Below are positions 9,116-28,031 of a stretch of 33,737 nt of DNA, piece after piece. A program made the translations under genes and the position numbers. The stretch's first letter is position 1. Each line of letters begins with the position of its first letter. The notes below the pieces were generated by a model. That model saw nothing but the letters and a program-made list of their open reading frames with translations, ran no database searches and was not told the origin of the DNA. The DNA comes from Trichocoleus desertorum ATA4-8-CV12 (GTDB taxonomy: Bacteria; Cyanobacteriota; Cyanobacteriia; FACHB-46), in assembly GCA_019358975.1 (NCBI GenBank), contig JAHHIL010000057.1, positions 1-33,737 of the forward strand. The letters run 5' to 3'.

Positions 9116-9159
9116 GCAACATAGCTCAGCCATTCGTAGAACTTAGACAGGAGACACCC

Positions 9160-11853: not shown

Positions 11854-11875
11854 GAACTTAACTTTTAATCAAAAA

Positions 11876-11894
11876 ATACCTAGAATCTAGGTAT
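11876..11894. promoter_or_regulatory. Candidate PadR operator
   Basis: ATACCTAGAATCTAGGTAT is a perfect inverted repeat (9-bp arms, one central base) between the PadR and thioesterase genes. TATAGA (11892-11897) at its right edge could be a -10 element toward the thioesterase. Symmetry and position fit a PadR dimer site. Confidence 0.65.
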
Positions 11895-11913
11895 AGAACA
11901 TCAAGGAGATCCT

Positions 11914-12357
11914 ATGAGCTTGAACACCTATCGTGGCACTGTATACCCATGGCATTGCGACCATGTTGGCCACATGAACGTGATGTGGTACGTCGGGAAG
12001 TTTGACGAAGCTACCTGGCAATTGTTTCGTGTGCTAGGTCTGACGCCAGGCTACCTTAGAGACACCAAACGTGGGATGGCGGCAGTAGACCAGCACATTT
12101 CATACATACGGGAAGTGCATGCCGGGACCACAGTGAGTGTTACGTCTCGGCTGCTGGAGGTGAAGGAGCGAAGCGTACGTTTTGAGCACGAGATGTTTGA
12201 CGATGAAACTGGTGAAGTCGTTGCTCGAACAACACTCAAGGGGGTGCACCTCGACAAGGTCAGCAGAAAGTCGTGTGCCTTTGACGATGCAATAGTCCAT
12301 GGAGCCAAAAGTCTGCTGTCTGGCGGAGTGGATGGCGCGGCCAGCCAAAACGCCTGA
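11914..12357 (+). CDS. Acyl-CoA thioesterase of the 4HBT/hotdog family
   Basis: A 147-residue single hotdog-fold protein. The motif VYPWHCDHVGHMNVMWYVGKF lies at about 10-30; Asp in CDHVGHMN is the expected catalytic residue of the 4-hydroxybenzoyl-CoA thioesterase/YbgC type. The following MAAVDQHISYIREVHAGTT and ERSVRFEHEMFDD also fit. Such enzymes release acids from CoA thioesters, often aromatic or short-chain. A strong AAGGAG site precedes the ATG. It is probably repressed by the divergent PadR protein, so an aromatic acyl-CoA is a reasonable guess. The sensor kinase gene follows after 26 bases, so read-through into the two-component genes is possible. Confidence 0.85.
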   Translation: MSLNTYRGTVYPWHCDHVGHMNVMWYVGKFDEATWQLFRVLGLTPGYLRDTKRGMAAVDQHISYIREVHAGTTVSVTSRLLEVKERSVRFEHEMFDDETGEVVARTTLKGVHLDKVSRKSCAFDDAIVHGAKSLLSGGVDGAASQNA

Positions 12358-12383
12358 GCACTTAGCAACGTGGGTGGTTGTAT

Positions 12384-14960
12384 ATGGACTCCTCCTACGC
12401 TCCACAAAGCGGGTTCCAGCGAAGAGTTTCTCGCCGAGCCGGATGGGTTGGGGGGGCGTTTATTGCAGCCGTTGCTCTGCAAGCTGCCTATGACGTCTTC
12501 CGCGGGTACGCGTATGTGATCAACGATATCCAGCGTGACCTTCAGGCTCAAGCGAGCATCATTGCAGAGCAGACTGCACGCGGGATTCAAGCTGTCGACA
12601 TCGTTCTTGGCAACCTCGCTGATCGGATTAGCAACGAACCAGAGCTCTTGCAGGACAGGGACAAACTTGGTGAGCTTCTAACGCACCAGGCCGAAGGACT
12701 GGTTCAAACAGAAGGACTTGTAGTGGTCGACGCAAGGGGCGGCCCCCTTGCCACGTCATCCGAACTTCGCGAGTTACCGCCTGGCGAAATTATCTCAAAT
12801 CAATCAGTTTTTCAGAGTTTAAAACTATCAGCGGTACCCAAACTTTGGGTTGGTAATGTAACTAGGGGCTCAATAAATAGTGCAATGACCTTTGCTATGG
12901 GGCGGCGCATTAGTGCGCTGACAAACGATTTTGCTGGCGTTGTCTCGGCACATGGCAAGGTGGAGTATTTTCAGCGATTCTATCGAGACTCCTTCCAAGA
13001 TAAACCGATCAGAATTTCGCTAATGCACCGTGATGGCTGGTTGCTTGCAAGGCACCCTCCAGCAAATGAAATGCTGGGGCACCGTCTCGAAGTATTGGCG
13101 ACGCTGTTACCCACAGAAAGCACTATTACAAGCACAGTAGCGCGGCTGCCAAGTCCCGTTGACGGCGCTGATCACTTTGTCGCACTTCAAGTGGTACCGG
13201 AGTACCCCTTGGTTATCGCCGTATCTTTGGAAGCATCAACCGCTTTGTCGGACTGGCGTGACCATGCTTGGACAACGCTATTCAGGACAGGTATTCTTTG
13301 TGCCTTAGCGGCGATGCTTCTTTGGATGGTATCGAGGCAAATAAATGCCCTTCAGACTGCCAGAAATTCACTCCAAGTATCTGATGAGCGATATGCAATC
13401 GCAATGGAGGGGTCGCGAGGGGGGCATTGGGTATACGACACCAAGAGCGACATCTTATACAGCTCGGAAGCAGTTAATAAGCTCTTTGGTTTAAATGCTC
13501 AAGCGCGTTCCATGCCTAGACTCGCTTACTACGCTTTGCTGCCTATTCATCCAGATGATCGTAAAAATTTGATAGAAAACAGCAATGCTGTTATTAAAGG
13601 CGAAGCAGATAGATTAGAGCAAGAGTACCGTATCGAGCTTTCAGATGGAGAGCATTGGATTCTTACGCGTGCACAACGTTTTCAGTCGTCGGAAGCAGGG
13701 GGCATCCAGGTAGCTGGTGTCAGTGTTGACATAACCGAACGCAAGCAGTTAGAGGCGGAACGTGAACGCTTGAGCGAAGAACTTAGGCGGGCTCAGCGCA
13801 TGGAGGCGATTGGTACTCTGGCAGGCGGTATTGCACATGACTTTAATAACATACTGGCCAGCATTCTAGGACACGGCGAACTGGCCCGCCGGCGGCTCGA
13901 TCAGACTTCTCCTGAGTACAGACATATAGATACGTGTATTCGTGCGGGTCAGCGTGCGAAATCTTTGGTGGAGCGGATACTCGTTTTCGCGCGTGGCGGT
14001 GTCAGTGAAAAGAGCATTGTTGACGTTGAAGCAGCAATTCACGAAGTGCTTGAATCACTTGAGCACCGAATAAGCTCAATAATATCTTTGGAAGTCAGCT
14101 TACAGAGCGACGGTTTTTCGGTACTTTGCGATCCAATTCAACTCCACCAAGTAATTCTCAATCTCTGCAGCAATGCCCTTCAAGCGATTGAAGAAAAGGG
14201 TAGATTGGCCGTAAGACTGAGACATGAAAACTTCAGTCAAGAAATTCACACCTTGACTGGAACTGTAGTGCCGGGCGACTACCTGTGTCTAGAGGTTTTA
14301 GACAATGGTATTGGGATGGACAAGTCCGTTCAGGAGCGAATTTTCGACCCATTTTTTTCCACACGCGGTACCGGATTAGGCACAGGACTAGGACTGTCGT
14401 TAGTGCATGGAATAGTGACTGACATGGGGGGAGGCATTCAAGTCGAAAGTGAAGTGGGAATTGGAAGTCGATTTATCGTCATATTGCCTGCCATAAAGAT
14501 CTGCGCGACTGTAATGGAACCTTCTGAAGAACGAGATAGATTGAATTGCCACGGCGAAGGCCAAGTAGTACTAGTAGTAGATGATGAAGCATCATTGGTT
14601 TCCCTGATGGAAGAGGAGCTCGCGATATATGGTTTCGAGCCTATGGGTTGCACCCAACCGAACGAAGCACTAAATCTATTACGTGAAAATCCGATGCGAT
14701 TTGATCTCGTAATAACAGATGAATCAATGCCTCAGATGCGTGGGGCAGAACTTACACGACATGCCAGGAGTATTCGGGAAAACATTCCAATAATACTGGT
14801 GAGTGGCTTTTTAACCCCGAAAATTGTCCAGGAGGCAAAAGTTTGCGGTGTCAACTTAGTCCTCGAAAAGCCACTTTCAGTTGGCCAGCTAGGTCGAGCT
14901 GTTTTTCAAGTTATTACAAGCACTCCAGCAACAGGTAAATATTTGGAGAAGCTAACATGA
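12384..14960 (+). CDS. Hybrid sensor histidine kinase (Cache-PAS-HisKA-HATPase-REC)
   Basis: A membrane sensor of 858 residues from the ATG at 12384 (a TTG six bases upstream is in frame). TM1 at about 20-38 and TM2 at about 298-316 flank a ~255-residue periplasmic region of Cache-like layout. A PAS domain follows (about 332-453), ending GVSVDITERKQLEAE. The HisKA box is GTLAGGIAHDFNNILA with His485. The ATPase has NLCSNA (N box), DNGIGM (G1) and GTGLGTGLGLS (G2). A C-terminal receiver carries Asp779 (LVITDESMP) and Lys829 (LEKPLS). Histidine-kinase types with this GGIAHDFNN box typically sense small extracellular molecules. It overlaps the response regulator by four bases. The AT content is higher than in the upstream catabolic genes. 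Confidence 0.9.
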   Translation: MDSSYAPQSGFQRRVSRRAGWVGGAFIAAVALQAAYDVFRGYAYVINDIQRDLQAQASIIAEQTARGIQAVDIVLGNLADRISNEPELLQDRDKLGELLTHQAEGLVQTEGLVVVDARGGPLATSSELRELPPGEIISNQSVFQSLKLSAVPKLWVGNVTRGSINSAMTFAMGRRISALTNDFAGVVSAHGKVEYFQRFYRDSFQDKPIRISLMHRDGWLLARHPPANEMLGHRLEVLATLLPTESTITSTVARLPSPVDGADHFVALQVVPEYPLVIAVSLEASTALSDWRDHAWTTLFRTGILCALAAMLLWMVSRQINALQTARNSLQVSDERYAIAMEGSRGGHWVYDTKSDILYSSEAVNKLFGLNAQARSMPRLAYYALLPIHPDDRKNLIENSNAVIKGEADRLEQEYRIELSDGEHWILTRAQRFQSSEAGGIQVAGVSVDITERKQLEAERERLSEELRRAQRMEAIGTLAGGIAHDFNNILASILGHGELARRRLDQTSPEYRHIDTCIRAGQRAKSLVERILVFARGGVSEKSIVDVEAAIHEVLESLEHRISSIISLEVSLQSDGFSVLCDPIQLHQVILNLCSNALQAIEEKGRLAVRLRHENFSQEIHTLTGTVVPGDYLCLEVLDNGIGMDKSVQERIFDPFFSTRGTGLGTGLGLSLVHGIVTDMGGGIQVESEVGIGSRFIVILPAIKICATVMEPSEERDRLNCHGEGQVVLVVDDEASLVSLMEEELAIYGFEPMGCTQPNEALNLLRENPMRFDLVITDESMPQMRGAELTRHARSIRENIPIILVSGFLTPKIVQEAKVCGVNLVLEKPLSVGQLGRAVFQVITSTPATGKYLEKLT

Positions 14961-15703
14961 CAATTATTAGTATCACTGGCGTTGTTCCTCATGTCGTCGC
15001 GGTTGATGATGACCCAGACATTCGCGATTTGCTACGGGGCTACCTTGAAGACAATGAAATTCGAGTGTCAACGCTAGCGACAGGTGCTGGGCTATCGGAC
15101 GTTCTTGATCGCGACACCATAGATCTTGTAGTGCTTGACGTTCGCTTACCTGGTGAAAACGGAATGCAAATTGCCCGCCGACTGAGAGAAAAATCACCAA
15201 CCCTTCCAATACTTATGCTGACAGGTCGTGCTGACGAAGCAGATAGAGTTATGGGCTTAGAGCTTGGAGCGGACGACTACATTACTAAACCATTTTCTAG
15301 CAGAGAACTTCTCGCGCGCATCCGGGCACTTTTACGAAGATCTCACGCGCAAACTAGAGTGCCAGATGCCATTGGTCGTGTACGTGCTTATCGCTTTGGT
15401 CAATGGGAATTGAATGTAGGTTTGCGTCGGCTTTCTAGCCCACAAGGTGAGCCGATTGGCCTGACCAATGGCGAGTTTAGCCTTCTCACTGCATTCCTAA
15501 GTGCTCCTCAAAGAACACTTACAAGAAGTCAATTGCTTGAACTAACTCGATTGCATGACGCAGAAGTTTACGATCGATCAATAGATATACAGATCCTTCG
15601 ACTTCGGAGAAAAATTGAGCGCGATGCTACAAGACCAGAGTTCATCGTTACACATCGTGGATCCGGATATGCCTTCGAAGCCCCAGTAGATGTGGTCCGT
15701 TAA
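14957..15703 (+). CDS. OmpR/PhoB-type response regulator
   Basis: A 248-residue regulator. The receiver domain has acidic DDD at 17-19, phosphoacceptor Asp61 in LVVLDVRLPGENG, and Lys111 in DDYITKPF. The C-terminal winged helix domain (about 140-245) has NGEFSLLTAFL, RTLTRSQLLEL, the DNA-recognition helix YDRSIDIQILRLRRKIE and the terminal VTHRGSGYAF. It starts with the ATGA overlap of the kinase stop, so the two are translated together. The hybrid kinase also carries its own receiver, so transfer may be relayed or the kinase HisKA may phosphorylate this protein directly; no Hpt domain is encoded nearby. The likely target is the downstream RND efflux operon, 726 bases away. Confidence 0.93.
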   Translation: MTIISITGVVPHVVAVDDDPDIRDLLRGYLEDNEIRVSTLATGAGLSDVLDRDTIDLVVLDVRLPGENGMQIARRLREKSPTLPILMLTGRADEADRVMGLELGADDYITKPFSSRELLARIRALLRRSHAQTRVPDAIGRVRAYRFGQWELNVGLRRLSSPQGEPIGLTNGEFSLLTAFLSAPQRTLTRSQLLELTRLHDAEVYDRSIDIQILRLRRKIERDATRPEFIVTHRGSGYAFEAPVDVVR

Positions 15704-16311
15704 CTCGCTTGCACCATTTGCAAACAGTTTCGTTGAAGCGTTGCTATTTTTACTAGCATGCTTCGGCCTCACAAACCCAGCACAGAAGTTTTGACACCTC
15801 TGGGTGAACAAATGTGCATGTACCAATGCAGCTAGAGCACGTCTAGTCCTGTTCCACTATTCAATTTCTTAAACGACCTGTAAGGCTGATTTTAGAAACG
15901 CCTGTCAGCCGGAAGTAGAGAAGAACTCAACACAAGTTGGCGAGTATATCGACAATGCTTCGCTAACCCTGCTCTTTAAGACTTGGAATTGCATGAGCGA
16001 GAGTGCTATGTCTTTTGCACTTGAATATCTCATGCTGTCAAAAAATCCATTGTCTTTTTGCATTCTCTCGTCAATCTGAAAATCGCAATCCCGTAGTCAT
16101 TGGCACACAAGCGGCCAAGAGTGAACTATCGCCGCTCTCCGCTGGATTGCAAACGAGGGGGCATTTGCTTGGTTTATCAAGAATTTTCCGGGAGACGTGT
16201 TTTGTCTTCGAACTGCTTCAAATGAAACCAGGTAGTGCAGACTGAGAAATCTAATTGAAACCCTTTGGCCGCTTAATCGACCATAGTGGGATCGAGGAGC
16301 AATGGCGATGA

Positions 16312-16350
16312 GTTGATACTTCAGGGAAGCAGCTGGGGGTTGATACGTCA
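16312..16350. promoter_or_regulatory. Direct repeats, possible response-regulator sites
   Basis: GTTGATAC occurs at 16312-16319 and 16339-16346, each followed by one base and TCA. Spacing is 27 bp. Tandem repeats upstream of the target gene are typical for OmpR-type regulators, though the usual spacing is 10-11 bp, so this is only a candidate. Confidence 0.35.
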
Positions 16351-16403
16351 AGACTGATCTGAAATTCTAAAGCATCGCCCTTCGCCCACCAAATTTCAGT
16401 CTT
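16350..16403. promoter_or_regulatory. Imperfect inverted repeat upstream of the RND operon
   Basis: AAGACT (16350-16355) and GAAATT (16361-16366) pair with AATTTC (16392-16397) and AGTCTT (16398-16403), with a GATCT bulge on the left side and a 25-base loop. It ends 27 bases before the first gene, so it could be in a leader RNA or be a binding site. Confidence 0.3.
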
Positions 16404-16429
16404 TCAAAACTTAATATACCACTAGTTAT

Positions 16430-17863
16430 ATGGACAAGTGCATATCCATATTGGCCAAGGCTTTGATTTCAGCGTCAATGCTACTCGCGATATCCGGGTG
16501 TGCAAGCAGCACACTGAACAGTACAGGGAGTTTGCAGTCAAGTGGCGCTACCGACAATTCATACTCGTACCCAGATCATCTGAATTATTGGTGGAGAAGC
16601 TGGGGCGATCAAAGACTTAATGACCTCATTCAAAAGGCCTGGAGTAATAATAGCGATGTACGAGTTGCAGTCGCTCGACTTAAGGAAGTACACGCTCGGA
16701 GAGCTGAGGTAGATGCAGCTAAGTATCCTTCTCTGGCACTTCTTGCGCGTAGTGCCCGGGAGGAGAAATCAGATGCAGTTCAATCTTCTCATAAGCTAAA
16801 TCTTGTTGCCTCTTACGAAGTTGACTTTTGGGGGCGTATTGCGACCCAACGATCTTCATCTGAATACGATTCACAAGCACAGTCCTGGGCATTAGCATTA
16901 GTTCAATGGTCACTGGCAGCACAGATGGCAGAGACATACACGGATTTAATTGCTATCAACTCGAAAATCGCTTCTGCAGGCGAGGCGAGAGGCACAATTT
17001 ATAAATCGGTAAAACTAATTAATTTGGGATTCAATTTTGGGACGCACTCGATTTTGGACTTGGAGCGAGCCAAAGCTGATCTTGCGGCCGCAGATTCAGT
17101 GATGGAATCATTACGGCGCCTTAGATTGGCCCTGCATACCAGGATGGCTTTGATCTCTGGTGAAAGTGCGGAAAAAATAGAGTCATATTTTCCTGATGCC
17201 AATGAATCCGATTTGACCAAATTGTTGTCTCTGTCATTGCCTGCAGGCTCACTTGAGCAAGCCATTAGAAATCGGCCTGATGTTCAAGAAGCTTTATTCC
17301 TTCTGGCAAGTCGTGATGCCGCATGGGTTGCGACAAGCCAAGCACGTTGGCCTCAGATAACTCTTACTGGCGATATTAGAGGTGATTCAAATCGGATCTC
17401 CAAAATATTCTCTTCAGGTAATATTTTGTGGTCGATAGCACAGGGATTAGCTATTAATTTGCTTGATGGCGGTGCCGCAAATGCTCGCACTGATCAAGCA
17501 CATTCGCGTGCAGAGGCAGCACGTGCGCGGTATGAGCATGCGATCGCGCGCGCACTTCTGGAAATCCGAGAGGCTTATACGGCCACCGAGATCAATCAAT
17601 CGCTTTTAGAGGCACAACAACGGAGGGCCGTTGCAATGGATATGTCGGTTTCCATGGCAAGAGTGGGATACGAGGCTGGAACACTAGCGCTAATTGATTT
17701 TCTTGACGTGCAGCGACAGGCACTAATAGCGCGCATGAGTTTGGCAGATAGTCAGAGAGACCAAATTCTTGGCAAAGTTGCTGCCCTCAAGGCACTTGGT
17801 ACGGGACATAGTGGAGCAGGGCGTGTACTGACGCAGGGTGCCCATAGACATGGAGAATATTAA
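16430..17863 (+). CDS. RND efflux outer-membrane lipoprotein (OprM/NodT family)
   Basis: A 477-residue outer-membrane factor of the TolC-like channel family. It begins with a lipoprotein signal (MDKCISILAKALISASML, then LAISGC with Cys24 as lipidation site). Two outer-membrane efflux repeats follow, at about 55-240 and 265-455. The first is marked by WWRSWGDQRLNDLIQKAWSNN and SYEVDFWGR; the second by AIRNRPDVQEALFLLASRDAAW and AINLLDGGAA. The trimer forms the outer-membrane and periplasmic duct of the pump encoded by the next two genes. No clear ribosome-binding site precedes ATG 16430; an ATG at 16478 would cut into the signal and is less likely. The stop overlaps the start of the fusion protein (TAATG). 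Confidence 0.92.
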   Translation: MDKCISILAKALISASMLLAISGCASSTLNSTGSLQSSGATDNSYSYPDHLNYWWRSWGDQRLNDLIQKAWSNNSDVRVAVARLKEVHARRAEVDAAKYPSLALLARSAREEKSDAVQSSHKLNLVASYEVDFWGRIATQRSSSEYDSQAQSWALALVQWSLAAQMAETYTDLIAINSKIASAGEARGTIYKSVKLINLGFNFGTHSILDLERAKADLAAADSVMESLRRLRLALHTRMALISGESAEKIESYFPDANESDLTKLLSLSLPAGSLEQAIRNRPDVQEALFLLASRDAAWVATSQARWPQITLTGDIRGDSNRISKIFSSGNILWSIAQGLAINLLDGGAANARTDQAHSRAEAARARYEHAIARALLEIREAYTATEINQSLLEAQQRRAVAMDMSVSMARVGYEAGTLALIDFLDVQRQALIARMSLADSQRDQILGKVAALKALGTGHSGAGRVLTQGAHRHGEY

Positions 17864-19029
17864 TGAATAACCGTTGGAATGTTAATGAAATATCTAAATC
17901 CAAATTGTCAGGAAGAGCCCGCAGAATACTTGCTTGGGGTGTTGTGGCATCTATTCTCGTCCTGGGATTTTTATTAATTCCGATTCTCAAAAGCGCAGCC
18001 ATTGACAAGTCAAATTCAACGGTGGAAATATCCATAGATAAAGCGATGGCAGTCGAAATTGTCAGTCCGATATCGCGCGAGATAACGCGTCAGTTGACTG
18101 TTGCTGGGGGATTTGCTGCACGGGATGAGATCGTAGTGGGCTCGGATGCACCAGTTCGATGGAATCGTGTTCTGGTTGATATTGGAAGTTCTGTGGAAGA
18201 GGGTCAATTACTTGCACAGGGAGACGATAGTGTTCTGGTTGCTCAATTGGCTCAACAAGAAGCCTTATTGGTTCAAGCCGAAGCTCGCTTTAAATTAGCT
18301 CGTGAAAATCTGGGTCGCGCGCAGCAGGTGCAGGCGGCAGGTATTTACAGCGTTGAAGCCCTCGATGCCAAACAAAACGACGCGGCAGTCGCGGCGGCCC
18401 AGGTAAGCGCCATTCGAGCGCAAATACGTGAGGTTACCGCTCGCATAGCGCAGACACGTGTGTTTTCACCGGTAAAAGGTTTAGTGACACATCGAGCAGC
18501 CTCTGTGGGGGCTGTAACACCACCTGGTGGAGAGTTGTTCAGAATAATAAAAAATAGCCAAGTCGAATGGCAGGCAGAAGTACCTGAAAAAGAACTTCAG
18601 CAAATCCGTGAAGGTTCACTCGCTTCTGTAGATCTAGGCAGAGGTCTGAAAATTGAGGGGCGAGTTCGTGCGGTTGCACCGTCGGTGGCGAAGTCGACGC
18701 GCCGTGGCATTGTGTATGTGTCACTTCCGGTGCACCGCGATGTGCGATCTGGTGGCCATGCTACTGGATCTATAGAAATTGGTCGAGCCAGAGTATTGGT
18801 CTTGCCAATTCGCGTAGTTCAGTACCGCGATGGCATACCTTTCGTCTATACGGTTAATGAGCGGAATATTGCTGAAACTCGCACACTGTCGCTTGGAGTG
18901 CAAGATGGGGAACATGTGGAGGTGACGGGCATTGGGCAAGAAGCCCGCGTGGTATCCACTGGTGCTGGATTTGTAAAGGCTGGCGAACGACTCCATGTTA
19001 GCGCATTGACTCGGGGAGCTTCGCAATGA
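17863..19029 (+). CDS. RND efflux periplasmic adaptor (HlyD/MFP family)
   Basis: A 388-residue membrane fusion protein. One N-terminal membrane segment (about 25-44, ILAWGVVASILVLGFLLIPI) anchors it. The barrel-sandwich half WNRVLVDIGSSVEEGQLLAQGDD (about 105-127) leads to a coiled-coil hairpin of about 60 residues rich in Ala/Gln/Arg, then the second half RVFSPVKGLVTHRAASVGAVTPPGG. A beta-barrel and C-terminal domain follow. It lacks the lipobox found in AcrA. It links pump and outer-membrane channel. Overlaps of one base with the upstream gene and four with the downstream gene show tight translational coupling. Confidence 0.9.
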   Translation: MNNRWNVNEISKSKLSGRARRILAWGVVASILVLGFLLIPILKSAAIDKSNSTVEISIDKAMAVEIVSPISREITRQLTVAGGFAARDEIVVGSDAPVRWNRVLVDIGSSVEEGQLLAQGDDSVLVAQLAQQEALLVQAEARFKLARENLGRAQQVQAAGIYSVEALDAKQNDAAVAAAQVSAIRAQIREVTARIAQTRVFSPVKGLVTHRAASVGAVTPPGGELFRIIKNSQVEWQAEVPEKELQQIREGSLASVDLGRGLKIEGRVRAVAPSVAKSTRRGIVYVSLPVHRDVRSGGHATGSIEIGRARVLVLPIRVVQYRDGIPFVYTVNERNIAETRTLSLGVQDGEHVEVTGIGQEARVVSTGAGFVKAGERLHVSALTRGASQ

Positions 19030-22000
19030 TCCAGGATATTTCAGCACGTGCCATCCGTAAACCAATACCTCCGATAATTCTCTTTATCCTGCTGACGTTT
19101 GCCGGGCTACTGGGCTTTCAACGACTGGGAATTAATCAATTTCCGGATGTGGACATCCCATTCGTTTCAGTGAGCGTTGCTCAACCAGGGGCTGCACCCG
19201 CAGAGTTGGAGACACAGGTAACTAGGCAGGTGGAAAATGCTTTAGCAACAGTGGGTGATGTCTCACATATCTTGTCCACAGTGACAGATGGTGTCTCCAC
19301 AAGTCTAGTTGAGTTTCAATTTGGGAAAGATTTGGATCGTGCAGTCAATGACATACGCGATGCACTGGTCCGAATTCGAAGTGAGCTGCCGGGTGACATT
19401 GAAGAACCGGTTATCACGCGAAGCACTACATCGGGTGGGCCGATGCAGACCTTCGTCGTGAAAGACCACAGTAGAACATTATCTCCTCAAGAGCTGTCGT
19501 GGTTTGTGGACAACAAAGTCGCGCGCGCTTTGCTTTCGGTGCCGGGCGTTGGGCAAATTCGGCGCATAGGTGGCGTGGACCGCGAAGTACGAATTCGGCT
19601 CGATCCCGAACGACTTAACGCTCTTGGCGTAACAGCTGCAGAGATAAGCAGACAACTCGCCGCGAGTTCCATCAACCTGCCTGGCGGGCAAAGCGAGTTA
19701 TCCAGCGGTACGCAGAGCGTGCGAGCGCTGGGTGGCGCCGAAAGCGTGGAGGCCTTGCGCGGATGGTCTTTAGGGTTGCGGGACGCTCGATCAGTAAGAC
19801 TGACAGAAGTTGCAACTATTGAAGACGGCTCTGCAGAGCCGCGTCAAGACGCATTTGTCAATGGGGAACGAGTCGTGGCATTCCAAGTGCTGCGTGCTGT
19901 TGGTGCTTCCTCGGTCGATGTTGCCGCCTCTATCGAGCGAAAAGTAAAGGAACTGAACGCTGCAAATCCAAATATTTCGATCGAACTTTTCAATGCACCA
20001 GTGTCCTTTACTGTGGAGTCGTATTTTGCCTCTGTGGAGGCTTTAATTCTGGGTGCATTATTGGCAGTCATTGTGGTTTGGTGGTTTCTTCGGGACTGGC
20101 GCGCCACATTAATTGCAGCTGTGGCGATGCCCCTGTCGGTCATCCCAACCTTCTTTTTTATGCAGTGGCTGGGATTTTCACTCAATCTCATTACGCTACT
20201 CGGACTATCTTTAGTAGTCGGAATATTAGTTGATGACGCTATCGTCGAAATTGAGAACATTGTCCGGCACATTCGCATGGGGAAGAGCCCTTTGCAGGCG
20301 GCTATCGATGCCGCTGATGAAATTGGCTTGGCTGTAGTGGCAACTACGCTAGCGATCGTTGCTGTCTTCATTCCAGTTAGCTTCATGTCAGGCGTGCCTG
20401 GACAGTTCTTTAGGCAGTTTGGAATCTCGGTAGCAATCGCAGTGATGATTTCCCTGTTAGTCGCTCGGTTGTTAACGCCGGTAATGGGAGCATATCTTCT
20501 AAAAGGCGCTGTTGCTCACCATGAACCAGCGAAGCTGACGGTGAAATATCTCGAATTAGTAAGGTGGGGGCTAGGCCGCAGGAGACTCGCAATATTGTCT
20601 GGGGTAGTGCTTTTCTTAGCGTCGATTTCTCTTGCCCCGTTGCTTTCAAAAACCTTCATTCCGGCTAGTGATCGCTCGATGAGCACAATCAACTTTGAGC
20701 TACCTCCTGGCGCCAGCTTAGCGGAAACTGTTGTGGTCGCAGAGCATGCCCGTGCCGTGCTCGCAAGTCAGCCTGAAGTTGATCGCATTCTCACCACGGT
20801 TGGCAACGGAGCTCAGCTTGACTCAGTCGGCACTAGTGGAAGTGCAGAAGTGCGAGTTGGCACATTAACTGTGTCGCTCGTTGCTCCGTCTAAACGCTCC
20901 GTAACACAGCGCGAGTTTGAAAAGAGAGTTCAGCCCGAGCTCAAAAAAATACCAGGATTCCGCTTTCGTTTCGGTAGTGGCGAGGCCGGTGAGATGCTTG
21001 AGTTGATCCTCGTGAGTGACAACCCACGGCAGTTAGAGGCGACAGCTTCAAGCCTTGAGAATGAGATGCGCGGCGTGCCTGGAGTGGGAAACCCTGCAAG
21101 TGAAGCCAGCCTTCGCAGGCCTGAGGTATTGATAAAAATTGATCATGCGCGCGCAGCTGATCTTGGTGTTTCGGTCGCTGATATCGGAACAACACTCCGA
21201 GTTGCGACTATGGGTGACGTCCGGGCGCTGCTGCCTAAGCTTCACCTCGATGAGCGAAGCGTACCTATCAGAACCGAGCTTGCACCTCAGGTACGGACAG
21301 ATATCAACACATTGCGACAGCTTAGAGTTCCCACCTCTGGTGGAACCAGTGTTCCACTAACTTCTATTGCCCAGGTCGAAATGGGAAGTAGTGCTGCCAA
21401 GATTACTCGATTTGATAGGCAGCGCAGTGTAAGCATACGGGCTGATATCGGCGGAGCACCTTTAGGAGCAGTTAATGAAGCTATTGAGAAGCTACCGACT
21501 ATGCGTCAACTTCCCGCTGAAGTAAGCAAGGCGAACTTCGGCGACACAGAGCGCATGAACCAGTTGTTCGCAGATTTTGGTACCGCAATGATTGCCGGCG
21601 TCCTTTTGGTGTACTGCGTTCTCGTATTGCTGTTCCACGATTTCGCCCAACCGCTGACCATTATGGCTGCGTTACCGCTATCTTTCGGCGGTGCCTTGGG
21701 GTTACTCTTGATAACCGGAGAGCCGATGTCACTTCCTGCGACGATTGGAATTCTTATGCTGATGGGTATCGTAACCAAGAACTCAATTCTCTTGGTTGAA
21801 TATGCTTTGGTGGCGATTCGTGGTGGAATGGAGCGCACTCATGCACTTGTAGAGGCGTGTGAAAAACGTGCACAACCCATTATCATGACCACTGTTGCGA
21901 TGGGGGCAGGCATGTTACCTATTGCGCTGAAATTTGGTGCTGATGCTGATTTTCGAGCCCCTATGGCAATTGCTGTTATTGGTGGATTAATTACATCTAC

Positions 22001-22142
22001 AGTGCTATCACTTTTCTACATTCCTGTGGTGTTTTCTCTAGTAGACGATGCGAAAAGGTGGATTACGCATTTTCAGCCCCTTCACAGCCCCTTTCCGATT
22101 CAACGCATTCATTCAGAATTTTACAAACGGGAGGAAAAATGA
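19026..22142 (+). CDS. RND efflux pump (AcrB/HAE1-like permease)
   Basis: A full-length 1038-residue RND transporter. N-terminal TM1 is in IRKPIPPIILFILLTFAGLL, followed by the FPDVDIPFVSV porter start. The proton-relay Asp pair is Asp403/Asp404 in GILVDDAIVEIEN of TM4, and Lys918 is in MGIVTKNSILLVEYA of TM10, matching AcrB Asp407/408 and Lys940. Two large periplasmic loops and twelve helices are of normal size. The subgroup looks like HAE1 pumps of betaproteobacteria (drugs, solvents, aromatics) and not heavy-metal pumps. The C-terminus has a short extra tail (QPLHSPFPIQRIHSEFY). Its stop overlaps the next gene by four bases. Confidence 0.93.
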   Translation: MIQDISARAIRKPIPPIILFILLTFAGLLGFQRLGINQFPDVDIPFVSVSVAQPGAAPAELETQVTRQVENALATVGDVSHILSTVTDGVSTSLVEFQFGKDLDRAVNDIRDALVRIRSELPGDIEEPVITRSTTSGGPMQTFVVKDHSRTLSPQELSWFVDNKVARALLSVPGVGQIRRIGGVDREVRIRLDPERLNALGVTAAEISRQLAASSINLPGGQSELSSGTQSVRALGGAESVEALRGWSLGLRDARSVRLTEVATIEDGSAEPRQDAFVNGERVVAFQVLRAVGASSVDVAASIERKVKELNAANPNISIELFNAPVSFTVESYFASVEALILGALLAVIVVWWFLRDWRATLIAAVAMPLSVIPTFFFMQWLGFSLNLITLLGLSLVVGILVDDAIVEIENIVRHIRMGKSPLQAAIDAADEIGLAVVATTLAIVAVFIPVSFMSGVPGQFFRQFGISVAIAVMISLLVARLLTPVMGAYLLKGAVAHHEPAKLTVKYLELVRWGLGRRRLAILSGVVLFLASISLAPLLSKTFIPASDRSMSTINFELPPGASLAETVVVAEHARAVLASQPEVDRILTTVGNGAQLDSVGTSGSAEVRVGTLTVSLVAPSKRSVTQREFEKRVQPELKKIPGFRFRFGSGEAGEMLELILVSDNPRQLEATASSLENEMRGVPGVGNPASEASLRRPEVLIKIDHARAADLGVSVADIGTTLRVATMGDVRALLPKLHLDERSVPIRTELAPQVRTDINTLRQLRVPTSGGTSVPLTSIAQVEMGSSAAKITRFDRQRSVSIRADIGGAPLGAVNEAIEKLPTMRQLPAEVSKANFGDTERMNQLFADFGTAMIAGVLLVYCVLVLLFHDFAQPLTIMAALPLSFGGALGLLLITGEPMSLPATIGILMLMGIVTKNSILLVEYALVAIRGGMERTHALVEACEKRAQPIIMTTVAMGAGMLPIALKFGADADFRAPMAIAVIGGLITSTVLSLFYIPVVFSLVDDAKRWITHFQPLHSPFPIQRIHSEFYKREEK

Positions 22143-23086
22143 ATTTTGACCGCATACCTTTGCATGATCAATTGAGATTGCCCGATGGTCGTACTCTCTC
22201 CTATGCTATATACGGTACGCCTGGAGGACAGCCTGTCTACTTCTTCCACGGTTTTCCTGGAAGTAGGCTTCATGCCGAATTGGGTCACGAGGATGCGATA
22301 GCTACGGGAGTCTGTCTTGTTGCATTTGACCGCCCCGGATTTGGCAGGTCCAGTTGGGTTGATGCTCCAACTATTGACCACATTATTTCTGATGTTTCCG
22401 TTCTTGCAGATTACCTTGGTCACAGACGATTCGGAGTTCTTGGCGTTTCATGTGGAGGCCCCTATGCGCTGGCCTCTGCACGACTGATGCCGACTCGAGT
22501 CTCTGCGGTTGGTCTTCTTGCGGGAATGGGGCCAATGAACATTCCTTCGCTGCGGAAACATCAAATGCGTGTACTGAAGTTTATGTTCGCTGCGGCCAAA
22601 ACTCTGCCTTTGGCAATTACCCCTCTCCTATTTGCAGATTCCACGATCTTCAGGCGTGACGCAGAGCGTGCTGTAGAGATTCTGAGTAGGGCATTACCCC
22701 CCCCAGACAGAGCGTTGCTGGCGGAGAACGTTAAAGTACGAGAGCGCTTCGCTGCAGGTATGGCAGAAGCTTACAGGCAAGGCATCAGCGGTAGCCTAAG
22801 TGAAGCACGTCGCATATCCAAGCAAGGGACTGCGCAACTCAGAGAAATCTCGTGCCCAGTCCATGTATATCAAGGTGATCTAGATCGTCATGTACCAGTC
22901 GCCATGGGAGAATTTTTAGCATCTCATCTGCCGGGAGGACGGTTTCACCTACGTACAGGTGAGGGACATCTCTCGATAGTTTCTCATTGCATCAGGGAAT
23001 GCTTGAAGCTCTTATCTTCAAACATGAAGTCAGAGATTTCAATTTATGATCTAGTTCCTAAGAGTGTGGAGATAGAAAATGCTTGA
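22139..23086 (+). CDS. Alpha/beta hydrolase attached to the RND operon
   Basis: A 315-residue cytoplasmic alpha/beta-hydrolase without signal peptide. The oxyanion HGFPGSR segment lies at about 37-43, the elbow GVSCGGPYA has Ser104, Asp is in YQGDLDRHVP (Asp247 or Asp249), and His277 is in TGEGHLSIV, so the catalytic triad looks complete. ATG 22139 overlaps the pump stop (ATGA) and follows GGAGG, so it is clearly in the operon; the frame opening at 22058 lies inside the pump gene. Close relatives are annotated only as hydrolases, so ester, lactone or amide substrates are possible. Coupling with an efflux pump suggests it modifies the pump substrate or a related toxic compound. Confidence 0.85.
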   Translation: MNFDRIPLHDQLRLPDGRTLSYAIYGTPGGQPVYFFHGFPGSRLHAELGHEDAIATGVCLVAFDRPGFGRSSWVDAPTIDHIISDVSVLADYLGHRRFGVLGVSCGGPYALASARLMPTRVSAVGLLAGMGPMNIPSLRKHQMRVLKFMFAAAKTLPLAITPLLFADSTIFRRDAERAVEILSRALPPPDRALLAENVKVRERFAAGMAEAYRQGISGSLSEARRISKQGTAQLREISCPVHVYQGDLDRHVPVAMGEFLASHLPGGRFHLRTGEGHLSIVSHCIRECLKLLSSNMKSEISIYDLVPKSVEIENA

Positions 23087-23321
23087 GCTTCGTCCAAGTT
23101 GTGAACGATGTGATGTGAGTCTTGCCCCTGACAGTCAGAACGCTTGGATATGCAGTTTTGAGTGTACTTTCTGTTCCACCTGCGCAAATCATTTATTTAA
23201 TTTTTCCTGCCCTAACTGTGGCGGTGAATTGGTTCCACGGCCTACGCGACGAGGAGAGGCGTTGCAGAATAATCCTGCAGGAACATATCGCATTTATCGG
23301 CCTTCAGCGATACAAAGTTAA
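23079..23321 (+). CDS. DUF1272 small Cys-rich protein
   Basis: An 80-residue protein starting MLELRPSCERCD, with eight cysteines (8, 11, 25, 29, 32, 35, 44, 47) in CxxC-type pairs. The CSFECTFC, CSTC and CPNCGGELV segments are typical of DUF1272, a probable zinc-binding family of unknown function. GGAG lies about 8 bases before the ATG, inside the hydrolase gene, which it overlaps by eight bases. It is the last gene of the RND operon; a strong terminator follows after 29 bases. The final 25 residues are basic and hydrophilic. Confidence 0.85.
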   Translation: MLELRPSCERCDVSLAPDSQNAWICSFECTFCSTCANHLFNFSCPNCGGELVPRPTRRGEALQNNPAGTYRIYRPSAIQS

Positions 23322-23350
23322 CGACTCTCTGAGTCATATAGGCGGAATGT

Positions 23351-23387
23351 AAAAGGGCGAGTGTGCGCTGTGCACTCGCCCTTTTTT
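23351..23387 (+). terminator. Intrinsic terminator of the RND operon
   Basis: AAAAGGGCGAGTG (23351-23363) pairs with CACTCGCCCTTTT (23373-23385), giving a 13-bp perfect stem with a 9-base loop and a T-run of six. It is a strong Rho-independent terminator for the operon ending at 23321. Confidence 0.92.
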
Positions 23388-24020
23388 ATCATTCGCAAAG
23401 TATGCTGTGAAAATAGCGGCTGCTTTGGAAACCTCACCACAGCCAGTTGCGCAATTGTAGAGAGATTTACTGCAAGAAAATATTACATAGAAAAATGGTT
23501 TCGACAGAGTAGTTCTATGCTGCCAATTGTGTTTTGCGTGCTAAATTGAATATTTGGCATGTTTTTCCTTTCCGGGATAAATAAATATAAATTTGAGTGA
23601 AGATTTTTTGCTATTGCGCCGATGGTACTTTGAACGCGACATAGCGTTTACAGAATCGCGTAGACCTATATCAAGCCAGCGCATTGCACGGATTTTCGAG
23701 ATCAATCATTTCTACTCAACATTGCTGAGCCAAAAAATATATTCACGCCTTTTGTGTCATGTTTGCAAACGCTGCTCAGCATCAATTTGATTGAGGATTT
23801 AGTTCAACGAAGCCTAAGACGCAGGGTGGTTTGAATCGAAGTCTAGCGAATCGAGAGAGCTACGACTACGATTGGCCTCACAACCACATTCATGAAATTT
23901 CTGATGTTTCAAAAGAAACATATAGTTGAAACTTTGCAATCTTTTTGAAGCAAGAGGTGGGCATTATTGAACGGACTTAAAAATCCAATAGACTTTTGTT
24001 CTTGGCTATTTTTAATACTG
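23388..24020. other. AT-rich intergenic region after the RND operon
   Basis: About 630 bases with no supported gene. A 65-residue frame from 23593 (TTG start) has no ribosome-binding site and no recognisable motif. Two small palindromes are visible: GAAATTTC (23894-23901) and TGTTTC-AAAA-GAAACA (23905-23920). Together with the next entry they suggest regulatory DNA for the transporter operon. Confidence 0.4.
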
Positions 24021-24067
24021 TAATTTAAATATGATTAAATTAACTGCACGAGCTCGTGTTTAAACAC
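24021..24067. promoter_or_regulatory. Cluster of palindromes upstream of the EamA transporter gene
   Basis: TAATTTAA-N6-TTAAATTA (24021-24042) is an 8-bp perfect inverted repeat. CACGAGCTCGTG (24047-24058) and GTGTTTAAACAC (24056-24067) are perfect 12-bp palindromes sharing GTG. The distance to the start codon (24090) is 22 bases. They are likely operators for a LysR-type or similar regulator; which one is not known. Confidence 0.45.
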
Positions 24068-24089
24068 TCATAAACCAAAGATTATTATA

Positions 24090-24983
24090 ATGACCGTATT
24101 AACGGGGGCAGCGGCTGCACTGCTTGCTTCATTTTTTTGGGCACTAGGCTCCATACTGGCTCAAAATCCAGTGAGACACTTAGGAATTCTGCGGTTTACT
24201 CACGTACAGTTGGTTAGCTCGTTTGCAGTTCTCGCTTGTATTGTGTCATTGTCCGTGGGGTGGGGGAATATAGGATCTAATCATCTCGCAAACATTCTAT
24301 TTGCCAGTGCGATCGGTGTTGTGCTAGGAAATTTTTCATTCGCATATTGCATTAGGGTTCTTGGTCCGAGATTGACTCATCTAATAATGATGACTGCCTC
24401 GCCGATCGCAGTAGTGCTAGATTTTATTGTTTTTAAAAAACTTCCTCTAGTCAGGCAGATTGAAGGAGGTTTGATTATCATGATCGGCATAGCAATCGCC
24501 ATTGCTTATGGAGAGAGTTCAAAAAAAATACATGAACCGCAAAAAAATAAACAGCGAATAATTGGCTTCGGCGTTGGACTTGTTGCCGCTAGTTCTCAGG
24601 TTTGTGGTTTATTAGCGCTAAAGCCGCTTTTGCAAGAGGGAGTAGCTCCCTTGGCTGTGACTGCTGTAAGGACCGGGGGTGGGGCCCTATTGGTTTCTTT
24701 AATATTTGTTCTAATGGCCTCTAAGCTAAAAGATGCATATGATGTAAATCACAAGGTGATTGTTTCTGCAATTACCCCTGGCATCATGGGTTATTGCGTT
24801 GCAGTTTCTTTGCAACTTTACGCTCTCAGAAATCTTGGAGCTGGCGCGGCAATTCTTCTTGGATCAACCGCCCCCATTATGGTAGTGCCGCTGCTATGGA
24901 TTCATAGTAGGCAAAGGCAAGCTGTCGGAGCATGGATTGGCGCGGGAGTAGCTATATCTGGTATCGCATGGGCAATAATTTAG
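24090..24983 (+). CDS. EamA/DMT-family transporter (10 TM)
   Basis: A 297-residue protein with about ten hydrophobic helices in two EamA repeats (about 1-140 and 155-297). The start TGAAAALLASFFWALGS and the repeat-ending IEGGLIIMIGIAIAIAYGE and AVGAWIGAGVAISGIAWAII are typical of drug/metabolite exporters, which also transport amino acids and organic acids. The gene is AT-rich. It lies 111 bases before the second fumarylpyruvate hydrolase, so it may serve the same aromatic pathway as importer or exporter. No clear ribosome-binding site precedes the ATG, and TATAAT overlaps it (24086-24091), which is probably chance because helix 1 begins at this start. Confidence 0.82.
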   Translation: MTVLTGAAAALLASFFWALGSILAQNPVRHLGILRFTHVQLVSSFAVLACIVSLSVGWGNIGSNHLANILFASAIGVVLGNFSFAYCIRVLGPRLTHLIMMTASPIAVVLDFIVFKKLPLVRQIEGGLIIMIGIAIAIAYGESSKKIHEPQKNKQRIIGFGVGLVAASSQVCGLLALKPLLQEGVAPLAVTAVRTGGGALLVSLIFVLMASKLKDAYDVNHKVIVSAITPGIMGYCVAVSLQLYALRNLGAGAAILLGSTAPIMVVPLLWIHSRQRQAVGAWIGAGVAISGIAWAII

Positions 24984-25094
24984 AAATGCAATATTTTTGA
25001 TGTCCCAAGCACGATTGACTATTTGTGTTCAGTTGATTTCAATTTAAGAAGCAAGAAAACGGTAGCGCATTTTGTCTTCTTTTTAGGCATTTAA

Positions 25095-25796
25095 ATGACA
25101 AATTATCTGTGGAATCCTCCGCCTGTCTACTCACTGCCAATTCGAGATGGCGTAGAGCGTATTCCCATTAACAGACTATTTTTCGTTGGCAGAAACTATC
25201 ATGCTCATGCTATCGAAATGGGAAGGCCGGTGGATAAGAATGTGGAGAGGATTTTCTATTTCACAAAATCACCACAAACGCTTGTTGAAAGTGGTGCCAG
25301 TGTTACCTATCCACCAGAAACTAGAAATTTTCACTTCGAGATGGAGCTAGTGGTTGTTATTGGTAAGTCAGGCTTTCGGGTTTCCGTAGAGAGAGCGAAT
25401 GATCTGATCTATGGTTACGCCGCTGGACTTGATATGACTCGCCGCGATCTACAGTTGGATGCGCGTGAAAAAGGGCGCCCATGGGATCTTGGGAAGGATG
25501 TGGAGCAGTCGTCCGTCTGCTCAGAGGTCGTCCCGATGAACGGAGTGGTTATTGACAAGGGTCGGATTGAATTAGCCGTCAATGGAGTAACCAGGCAAAA
25601 ATCAAACATTGATAGACTGATATGGGGCATCCGCGAAATTATTTCTGACCTTTCTCTTTATTACCACCTCCAACCTGGTGATCTGATCTATACCGGTACA
25701 CCTGAAGGTGTTGGGGCAGTGCTGCCCGGTGATGTGATTACCGGCCATGTTGAGGGGGTGGGTGGCGTAGATTTGACTATAAGTGCATTTGAGTAA
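25095..25796 (+). CDS. nagK: Fumarylpyruvate hydrolase (FAH family), second copy
   Basis: A 233-residue FAH-family enzyme, closer in length to canonical NagK than the copy at 10533. It has [18 protein letters not shown] (about 26-43), ligands in [10 protein letters not shown] (Glu82, Glu84) and GLDMTRRD (Asp113), then GRPWDLGKD and [11 protein letters not shown]. In the gentisate pathway it releases fumarate and pyruvate from fumarylpyruvate. It is followed at 8 bases by a NagL-type isomerase, which supports a nagK-nagL pair, the order found in salicylate/gentisate gene clusters. Ribosome-binding site weak. No ring-cleaving dioxygenase lies beside it; the nearest candidate is the single cupin at 8537. 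Confidence 0.87.
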
Positions 25797-25804
25797 TTTT
25801 ACTT

Positions 25805-26446
25805 ATGAAGTTATATAGCTTTTTCCGCAGCAGCACCTCTCATCGCCTGCGAATCGCGTTAAACCTGAAACGTATTCCTGTCGAATACGTTGCGATTGAT
25901 CTGCGGAAAGAAGAGCATTTGGAGGAGCGATTTAAATTAATAAATCCTCAGGCATTGGTTCCGGTGCTAGCATTGGAAAGTAATGAAACATTAATTCAAT
26001 CGCCTTCTATTATCGAGTGGCTGGAAGAAGAGTATCCAGCGCCTCCACTTTTGCCTCAAGATCCAATCATGCGAGCAAAAGTGAGAGCTTTGACTGCTAT
26101 CGTAGGTTGTGATATTCACCCTCTCAATAACCGCCGGATTCTTGAGTATTTGCGTCAACATCTGGGGGCTGACGAAAGTTCTGTGCAAGCTTGGTGTGAA
26201 AAGTGGATCATCCAGGGTTTCGATGCAATAGAATCGCTTCTTGCCGAAGAAGGGACGAGTGGCCCATTCTGCTTTGGCGATACTCTTACACTAGCAGATG
26301 TTTATCTAATTCCACAAATTGAGAGTGCTCGGCGCTTCAAAATAAGTATCGACAGATGGCCATTGATTTCTGCCATCGATCGTTATTGTGCGGAGATTGA
26401 GGAGTTTCGTAGCGCTACGCCAAAAATGCAACCGGATTTTGGGTGA
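25805..26446 (+). CDS. nagL: Maleylpyruvate isomerase (zeta-class GST, NagL type)
   Basis: A 213-residue zeta-class glutathione transferase. The N-terminal thioredoxin domain holds the active-site RSSTSHRLRIALNLK (8-22) and the cis-Pro segment PQALVPVL. IQSPSIIEWLEEEYP follows. The C-terminal helical domain (about 88-210) has GCDIHPLNNRRILEYLRQH, diagnostic of the maleylacetoacetate/maleylpyruvate isomerase group. It converts maleylpyruvate to fumarylpyruvate using glutathione in the cytoplasm. Only 8 bases separate it from the FAH-family gene, so the two enzymes form consecutive steps in one operon. I recall the NagL of Ralstonia sp. U2 as very similar in sequence. Confidence 0.9.
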   Translation: MKLYSFFRSSTSHRLRIALNLKRIPVEYVAIDLRKEEHLEERFKLINPQALVPVLALESNETLIQSPSIIEWLEEEYPAPPLLPQDPIMRAKVRALTAIVGCDIHPLNNRRILEYLRQHLGADESSVQAWCEKWIIQGFDAIESLLAEEGTSGPFCFGDTLTLADVYLIPQIESARRFKISIDRWPLISAIDRYCAEIEEFRSATPKMQPDFG

Positions 26447-27356
26447 ATATGATGTTTTGGATAGATGCTTTTTGAGCAAGGGCTTTTATTCAAAATCACT
26501 TCTACGGAAAATAGATAGCGCAATTCCACATGCCGATGTTCCTAACGCTCGCACTGTCTATGTGAGCTGGCATTAGTATGCACGTGCCTCATATTTCTAA
26601 CCTCTCAACAATCGTCCCACAATCCTTGTGGTTTGATGAGTACGCATATTTCCGCGTATCAAAGTAGGGACTTTGGTCATAGGGGTTGAAGTAGACCTTG
26701 CTGCCCCACTAGCCGCGCTCACTCAAATATTTTGAAGTGCCTCACCGCCCTGCAGTTTGTTGGGGCAGAGTAGTCTTTCGTATATCCGCCTTCCTAGACA
26801 GTAGTTGGGCGCGGCGGATTGAGCACCCCAATGAAAACTTCCCTTCGCCCCACCCAACCATGCTGAGTAGCTGCAATGAGGTCTCCGAGACTTCTCGATT
26901 TCTTCGTATCGCGCAGATTTTTACATCCGTAAATTCCATAGTTTCAATACTATAAACGCCAGTCTCATTGGGGCGTTGGACACAAGCAATGGCCAGGCAA
27001 TTTCGGTCTGATTTTTTTCTAATTTTCTCTTCTCCACCTTGCACTTGTGTGAAGTGCAGATCGTAAAGTAGCGGCATATAAAAGTTGAACCTAAGGCGGA
27101 CTGTTTTTTTACGGCAGCGTACGCCACATGGGGCTGGCGCACGCTGCATGCCTACCGAAGCGTATACCAGATGCCAGTTTAGCTGTGACTTCATAGTGAG
27201 TGTTCTATGAGCAACTCCTCCAAGTCTGCAGAAACAGCGCTGATACATCTGAAACACTACTCTATTGCTTCGGAAATGTATGCGTAATCTCTGTTTAGCC
27301 TAATTGTGGGATGGGAGTCGTTTCGAGTCCCTGCATCATTGGGTATTGACTTGAAG
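26447..27356. other. Long intergenic region with hairpins, no supported gene
   Basis: About 900 bases. A minus-strand frame (26742-27257, 171 residues) is open but has no known motif and Cys/Arg-rich segments, so it is not called. A short plus frame (26578-26667) is likewise unsupported. Two structured spots stand out: CCACAA-TCC-TTGTGG plus a TTTGAT/ATCAAA stem-loop (26617-26663), and GCAGCGT/ACGCTGC with inner GCCA/TGGC (27114-27147). Neither has a T-run after it. Confidence 0.4.
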
Positions 27357-27962
27357 ATGTACATCAGACCGACGATACTGAAAAAAGAACTGCCATTTTT
27401 CCCATCGCTCGCGATGGCAATGTTGGTCATCGCATGGTCCTTACTTATTTTGCATGCTCAGCCGCATAACGCAATCTCCGTGGTTTGTGGGGCACTAGTT
27501 GTGTTATTCCTATGGATCTATGCGCTTCTGCGTAACGCACAGGTGCGCCAAATATTCATTGGGTACATAAGTTTGATGATTTTGCTCATTCTGCAGGTTT
27601 CAGAGCATTGGATACTAAATCAAGCTGAAACTATAGTTTCGCTGTTCCCTTTGTTTTTTGCACCTCCATTTATTTGGTCGGCATCCATGCAGGTTGAAAC
27701 AATTGTGGTGATTTTTTCGGCGCTACTTTTGCATTCATCTGTCATTATTTTTGCATTTCATTCAATTGACAAATGCGATTATTCGGTTGGATGTTCTGTT
27801 TTTGCTATCGGTGGTCTATCTTTTCTCGGTGTAAATTCTGATATCAATTCACTAGGAGAGAAGCAAGCGGTGATAATTTTTATACTCGCCATGTTTCTAG
27901 TGGTTCGTGTCTTTTTTCAGAGAATTTTCTCAATGGATGCAAATATCAGCGAGATTAATTGA
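27357..27962 (+). CDS. Hypothetical multi-pass membrane protein
   Basis: A protein of about 201 residues with five to six hydrophobic helices (approximately residues 15-37, 42-60, 66-85, 97-118, 120-140, 150-190). It begins MYIRPTILKKELPFFPSLAM and ends MDANISEIN. No motif of a known transporter is visible. It resembles the N-terminal membrane sensor of a signalling protein without the output domain, but nothing proves that. The frame opens at GTG 27306; the ATG at 27357 is chosen because the preceding residues look unlike protein. Base composition is AT-rich, as around it. It stands 69 bases before a LysR gene on the same strand. Function unknown. Confidence 0.55.
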   Translation: MYIRPTILKKELPFFPSLAMAMLVIAWSLLILHAQPHNAISVVCGALVVLFLWIYALLRNAQVRQIFIGYISLMILLILQVSEHWILNQAETIVSLFPLFFAPPFIWSASMQVETIVVIFSALLLHSSVIIFAFHSIDKCDYSVGCSVFAIGGLSFLGVNSDINSLGEKQAVIIFILAMFLVVRVFFQRIFSMDANISEIN

Positions 27963-28031
27963 TGGGTGCGCTCAATACCAAATATTGATCACGCTTTCGT
28001 TTGCTCCAGGCTTTGGATGTAGGTGATATTT

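Follow-up and report, generated by a model that had tools for sequence, protein, structure and literature searches.

A predicted RND efflux operon with appended hydrolase and DUF1272 genes on a very probably betaproteobacterial contig in a Trichocoleus desertorum assembly

Layout of the five-gene operon

The assembly of the cyanobacterium Trichocoleus desertorum ATA4-8-CV12 (GCA_019358975.1; 6.06 Mb in 90 contigs) includes contig JAHHIL010000057.1, here called C57, whose entire 33,737 nucleotides form the window analysed. The window carries five consecutive plus-strand genes for an efflux pump of the resistance-nodulation-cell division (RND) superfamily, an alpha/beta hydrolase and a protein of the DUF1272 family (Table 1). 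These genes overlap at every junction. The outer-membrane factor (OMF) and membrane fusion protein (MFP) genes share one base in the sequence TAATG, the MFP and permease genes share the four bases ATGA, as do the permease and hydrolase genes, and the hydrolase and DUF1272 genes share eight bases. A preliminary description of this DNA, made from its letters alone, had given the same overlaps of 1, 4, 4 and 8 bases, and its domain guesses for all five products are matched by Pfam.

Table 1. Features of the window, with the operon genes and their terminator listed first
Feature	Position	Strand	Remarks
Outer-membrane factor (OMF)	16430-17863	+	477 amino acids; OEP domain
Periplasmic adaptor (membrane fusion protein, MFP)	17863-19029	+	388 amino acids; HlyD_D23/HlyD_3; TIGR01730 above cut-off
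RND permease, HAE1-like, full length	19026-22142	+	1038 amino acids; ACR_tran E 1.2e-223
Alpha/beta hydrolase	22139-23086	+	315 amino acids from ATG; Abhydrolase_1 E 2.2e-15
DUF1272 protein (PF06906)	23079-23321	+	80 amino acids; DUF1272 E 5.9e-28
Intrinsic terminator	23351-23385	+	16 pairs, 3-base loop, T run
Hybrid sensor histidine kinase (dCache-like, PAS, HisKA, HATPase, receiver)	12378-14960	+	Pfam matches; upstream of operon
OmpR/VirG-type response regulator	14957-15703	+	Response_reg and Trans_reg_C; 4-base overlap with kinase
Intergenic region, 726 bases	15704-16429	+	expected promoter location
HU and DNA/RNA non-specific endonuclease genes	1511-2897	-	89.4% identical to Acidovorax carolinensis plasmids

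Ribosome binding sites of the GGAG type are seen by eye ahead of the MFP, permease, hydrolase and DUF1272 starts, and inspection by eye finds no obvious site upstream of the OMF start. The hydrolase should begin at the ATG at position 22139, which is preceded by a GGGAGG ribosome site; the mechanically called open reading frame is 342 amino acids long and starts at a GTG inside the permease gene. The strong terminator that the preliminary description placed at the end of the unit is borne out by folding. The segment 23340-23400 folds to -32 kcal/mol versus a mean of -15.1 for shuffled sequences (z = -6.6), and none of 200 shuffles folds as well. A scan of 15600-24200 returns 11 terminator-like sites, where 8.3 (standard deviation 3.1) are expected. 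The other ten sites (three of them inside operon genes, on the plus strand, with longer or GC-rich stems) therefore mean little. This layout supports the earlier view that the five genes are made together, presumably from a single transcript.

The first three genes encode a complete, HAE1-like tripartite pump, with a full-length ACR_tran permease, an adaptor and an OMF. The OMF reaches 192 bits with a NodT-like model, below the cut-off of 210, and has a lipobox, ISGC, that is recognizable by eye. Its partner permease scores below the cut-off of every named NCBIfam permease model, the best being RND_permease_2 (709 bits versus 1250), and no named pump is therefore claimed. The permease motifs VDDAIVEIEN and GIVTKNSILL were seen by eye, without alignment to AcrB, whose proton-relay residues we take to be D407, D408 and K940. 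The permease is 44.6-50.2% identical to those of 11 pumps found on plasmids. Such a pump would expel hydrophobic or aromatic toxic molecules.

Genes for a hybrid sensor kinase and a response regulator precede the operon. No sigma-70-like site is listed on the plus strand of the intergenic region between regulator and pump. Response-regulator and kinase-type genes also lie no more than about 1.3 kb from the related plasmid pumps in 5 of the 11 loci, which makes control of the C57 pump by the upstream pair a reasonable proposal. The response regulator is the probable regulator of the pump.

Among operons of this kind on rhizobial plasmids, the locus on pAt of Agrobacterium vitis (L224) has the same OMF-MFP-RND order, with overlaps of 1 and 4 bases and with response-regulator and kinase genes nearby. 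Its permease is 47% identical to that of C57 and its OMF only 24%. Unlike on C57, the regulator genes are divergent and neither a hydrolase nor a DUF1272 gene is joined to the pump; a patatin-like gene is located about 0.6 kb downstream.

The two appended gene products

The fourth gene encodes a hydrolase with the residues of a serine-nucleophile enzyme, Ser104-Asp249-His277. Its nucleophile elbow, G102-x-S104-x-G106, is kept in all 11 aligned hydrolases, and D249 and H277 are each kept in 10 of them (own protein included in both counts). No signal peptide is seen by eye, which suggests that the protein is cytoplasmic. The preliminary description had called it a cytoplasmic serine hydrolase, and that description fits. 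The protein stays under the cut-offs of named NCBIfam hydrolases (PRK14875, 59.5 bits with a cut-off of 307; PcaD, 58.6 bits with a cut-off of 255.85) and appears to resemble PcaD-type (enol-)lactonases, esterases and arylesterases only remotely. No acyl-homoserine lactonase model is among its Pfam and NCBIfam matches. The best match in a sequence search of the PDB is 9wlv, named a pimeloyl-ACP methyl ester carboxylesterase (E 1.1e-36), a resemblance that does not fix the likely substrate. Scans of viral contigs return no relatives of the hydrolase or the permease, and PADLOC gives no match at E 0.01.

The fifth gene product matches DUF1272 over its full length, with 97.2 bits versus a Pfam gathering score of 25.3. 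Eight cysteines are invariant across all 18 sequences of an alignment that contains the C57 protein and omits partial or weak matches. These residues would fit two zinc sites and make zinc binding probable, in keeping with the 'probable zinc protein' of the preliminary description. Zinc-ribbon proteins match in the PDB at E 0.019 and weaker, which at best hints at zinc binding. Designed beta-trefoils rank best in that search (down to E 7.6e-6) through a short stretch of the Gly/Asn-Cys-Pro type, and these matches are taken as chance. Single-sequence structure predictions have a mean predicted local distance difference test score (pLDDT) of 41.4 for the DUF1272 protein and 36.2 for the hydrolase and were not used.

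The neighbours of DUF1272 genes vary. Ten neighbours at seven loci include genes for PhoD, an FAD/BBE oxidoreductase, MATE, GST, a methyltransferase and a glycosyltransferase, and on plasmids urease, alcohol dehydrogenase and VOC genes are added to this list. On pSymB of Sinorhizobium meliloti (L066:3686-4572), the DUF1272 gene sits within the urease operon, between the genes for the gamma and beta subunits.

Genes for aromatic-acid catabolism flank the pump on both sides (7669-11303 and 25095-26446). They encode a dienelactone-hydrolase-family protein, an aromatic-acid (PcaK-like) MFS transporter, two FAA hydrolases, a maleylacetoacetate isomerase (maiA) that scores above its model cut-off, and a gentisate-dioxygenase-like cupin that, at 52-75 bits, falls far below the model cut-offs. 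These neighbours make an aromatic or ester substrate plausible.

Gene order in other genomes and the case for accessory genes

The preliminary description had suggested surveying genomes for a conserved order of pump, hydrolase and DUF1272 genes. This order does not recur at any of 29 pump loci from cyanobacteria or 11 from plasmids, in a search that covered plasmids and cyanobacterial genomes and left betaproteobacterial chromosomes outside. Uniqueness to this genome is what the preliminary description named as refuting its idea, and within this range a conserved pump-hydrolase-DUF1272 system finds no support. The permease finds matches at E <= 1e-200 in 75 of 388 genomes of the cyanobacterial class, own included (best two candidates per genome). 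Among 29 other cyanobacterial pump loci, searched with tblastn at E 1e-4 in flanks of up to 1.5 kb, none has a DUF1272 gene and one (L041/L089, in G020) has a relative of the hydrolase. Iterated profiles recover the same lone case when applied to 20 loci taken with wider flanks, namely 18 of the 29 together with second pumps from two of these genomes (some loci are truncated where a contig ends). This hydrolase gene was rejected as a counterpart. It begins 36 bases past the permease gene with no overlap, and its product is 27% identical to the C57 hydrolase and carries the motifs GGPGGG and GGSWGS. These motifs look like those of proline iminopeptidase.

Searches that start from the appended genes give the same picture. 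Hydrolase matches at E <= 1e-30 occur in 19 of the 388 genomes, own included (best five candidates per genome). Neither the permease nor DUF1272 is found within flanks of up to 1.5 kb at any of 22 other hydrolase places, and the same holds for the seven of these that were viewed with wider flanks. DUF1272 is present in 14 of the 388 genomes, own included, and wider loci from the 13 others contain no relative of the C57 permease or hydrolase. At one of them (L117) an HlyD-type adaptor gene follows 0.9 kb downstream, after a gene for a methyltransferase.

The permease has matches in 1265 plasmid records, none of which reaches 60% identity. The 11 pump loci opened have no annotated DUF1272 gene, and tblastn finds neither the C57 type of hydrolase nor DUF1272 in them (plasmid gene tables are incomplete). 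The hydrolase matches 24 plasmid records, with identities of 28-34% in the 20 listed, and DUF1272 matches 90. Seven DUF1272 plasmid loci were opened; the six that are annotated (five distinct settings) have no pump or permease relative alongside. Exact short peptides searched against 84,980 genomes of named species, an approach that would miss diverged relatives, yield a single weak match, in Macrococcus.

The joining of a hydrolase gene to an RND pump, which the preliminary description considered unusual, has a published precedent. In Burkholderia pseudomallei, llpE, encoding a putative lipase/carboxyl esterase, is co-transcribed with bpeEF-oprC, and LlpE is stated there, from the authors' unpublished data, to have no effect on efflux, at least for known antibiotic substrates (PMC5587915). 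In B. cenocepacia, the cited passages single out llpE as a peculiar feature of ceoAB-opcM (PMC1557404, PMC2891726). Like the C57 operon, which is compared here by layout only, these units combine a tripartite RND pump with an esterase-like gene, and the likeness of LlpE to the C57 hydrolase is one of description.

The differences are several. As these operons are described in the passages cited, llpE comes first and is followed by genes in the order MFP-RND-OMF (llpE-bpeE-bpeF-oprC and llpE-ceoA-ceoB-opcM), whereas C57 has OMF-MFP-RND-hydrolase-DUF1272, with the hydrolase fourth of five. The same passages call B. cenocepacia LlpE a periplasmic lipase-like protein, in contrast to a C57 hydrolase that lacks a recognizable signal peptide. 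They place the B. pseudomallei operon under the LysR-type regulator BpeT, whereas two-component genes lie upstream on C57, and they mention no DUF1272 gene, which C57 has. BpeF and CeoB are MexF/OqxB-type permeases. The C57 permease falls short of this type: it reaches 333 bits with the OqxB model, whose cut-off is 2200, and this score ranks below those of seven other permease models. The gene order, two-component link and DUF1272 gene make the C57 operon a variant of such pump-esterase operons. Since llpE is co-transcribed with its pump and is reported not to affect the export of known antibiotic substrates, the wiring of a pump to an esterase does not, by analogy, by itself imply shared substrates.

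We consider it likely that C57 carries an ordinary HAE1-type pump to which two accessory genes have been added locally, on contaminant betaproteobacterial DNA and perhaps in the context of aromatic catabolism. The pump operon would probably be switched by the adjacent upstream two-component system, and the hydrolase and DUF1272 genes would be independent accessories joined downstream by a local rearrangement. The hydrolase would act in the cytoplasm, opening an ester or lactone, and would not be a part of the pump.

Several observations pull the other way. That each of the four junctions overlaps suggests that co-expression was selected and that the genes are not neighbours by chance. In the survey, contig ends truncate several loci, and the best two permease or best five hydrolase candidates were scored in each genome. 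A hydrolase relative lies about 2.3 kb upstream of the DUF1272 gene on the S. meliloti plasmid, with three genes between. In addition, because C57 is probably not cyanobacterial, cyanobacterial genomes are not the right place to test orthology, and the order may be kept in some lineage among betaproteobacterial chromosomes, which lie outside the surveyed set.

Joint breakdown and export of one substrate, the idea raised in the preliminary description, is possible. Under this explanation, which we regard as unlikely, detoxification would have two layers: the pump lowers the level of a toxic ester, lactone or aromatic, the hydrolase destroys the same compound as it enters the cytoplasm, and the DUF1272 protein acts as a zinc-dependent helper. 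The tight overlap of five genes before one terminator, the retained catalytic triad, the weak kinship of the hydrolase with the enol-lactonase PcaD and arylesterases, and the aromatic-acid genes on both flanks are consistent with it. Against it stand the failure of the gene order to recur in the surveyed cyanobacterial and plasmid loci and the unpublished finding, stated in the passage cited, that the analogue LlpE has no effect on known antibiotic export (PMC5587915).

Origin of the contig and standing of its genes

The assembly is cyanobacterial, given 11 matches to the phycobilisome family, none of which is on C57 (of 14 controls, only Synechococcus elongatus is positive in this search). 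A 16S search of the genome finds none; the same search is positive in just 9 of 14 controls. In composition, C57 stands apart. Each of the 89 other contigs, represented by one stretch (the first 15 kb or less), was compared with the average over the remaining 88, giving tetranucleotide correlations (r) of 0.58-0.87, versus 0.11, 0.31 and 0.36 for three 15-kb pieces of the window. HIP1 (GCGATCGC) occurs at 40-330 sites per 100 kb in the 89 contigs and once in the window, versus 54 sites expected. Thus, C57 resembles the other contigs neither in composition nor in HIP1 content, and an earlier composition run with 40 contigs agrees that it is foreign. Two loci from the cyanobacterial class are also HIP1-poor (7 and 15 per 100 kb). 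Two congener genomes have no match for the hydrolase (E 1e-20), permease (E 1e-200), DUF1272 protein (E 1e-6), response regulator (E 1e-40) or the DNA of 24090-26446 (E 0.001).

Several parts of the contig have relatives on proteobacterial plasmids. Its HU protein shares 85 of 103 residues with the counterpart from Acidovorax carolinensis plasmids. The first 125 bases (1-125) are about 80-82% identical to Pseudomonas plasmid sequence annotated mostly as IS3-family transposase. The best plasmid matches of maiA are from Acidovorax (64.5%), Paraburkholderia (62.4%) and, at 62-66%, Azospirillum, Sphingobium, Pseudomonas and Vitreoscilla. Two stretches of Acidovorax plasmids give r of 0.42 and 0.33 when compared with the window; against the remaining genome they give -0.04 and 0.07. 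A cyanobacterial locus with 62% GC (L089) also correlates with the window (r of 0.39), and composition was therefore rejected as a guide to the donor; it marks C57 as foreign and does not identify its source. The contig itself appears to be mosaic. Positions 1-12000 are unlike the remainder (r of 0.22). From about 13.5 to 31.5 kb the GC content is 43-53%, down from 52-60%, and it then rises to 57%. The operon therefore lies within a lower-GC island whose donor is uncertain. It would reside on a mosaic, plasmid-like segment of a Comamonadaceae-type betaproteobacterium.

C57 is very probably a betaproteobacterial (Comamonadaceae-type), plasmid-like contaminant of the cyanobacterial assembly. Other findings are harder to fit to such an origin: the Acidovorax match is only 1.4 kb long, and the plasmid collection contains nothing close to 23400-33737. 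It is most unlikely that C57 is a real plasmid or a recent island that this cyanobacterium acquired from a betaproteobacterium. In favour of such an origin, the assembly is scored as only 0.2% contaminated, and the plasmid-type and IS3-like sequences on C57 would suit a native plasmid. C57 is also the sole composition outlier found among the 90 contigs, with a single stretch sampled from each of the other 89, so that no second foreign contig was seen. Its near lack of HIP1 sites, its low correlations and the five queries that go unmatched in both congeners at the thresholds used argue against a native replicon. So does the frequency with which cyanobacterial cultures are not axenic; Proteobacteria are the most frequent contaminants of heavily contaminated assemblies (PMC6059444). 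The more useful outcome is a caution: because C57 looks like betaproteobacterial contamination, none of its genes for efflux, catabolism or DUF1272 should be attributed to the cyanobacterium.

It is very unlikely that C57 carries a plasmid-borne betaproteobacterial cassette in which RND pump, cytoplasmic esterase or lactonase and DUF1272 zinc protein are coupled against a toxic aromatic ester or lactone. A cassette of this kind would give DUF1272 a function, and if pump, hydrolase and DUF1272 protein do act together, the operon would provide a handle on an uncharacterised family of small zinc-type proteins. As an accessory-bearing pump operon, it varies only slightly on a kind already known, and its biological significance is modest.

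Other genes follow related pumps on plasmids. Two Roseomonas plasmids have SGNH hydrolase and MBOAT genes in this position (L069:7198-7863 and L070:7205-7867). Hydrolase genes after the 11 plasmid pumps are of the SGNH type in two cases and patatin-like in two (L224 and L230), and in one case an alpha/beta hydrolase gene is found three genes on; none overlaps a pump gene. Judged by these gene annotations, pumps of this clade may repeatedly have lipolytic enzymes encoded nearby. On a Pantoea agglomerans plasmid (L223:3989-7726), a hypothetical gene overlaps the related RND permease gene by 17 bases and a GFA-family gene follows 5 bases on, which is another case of small genes added to such a pump.

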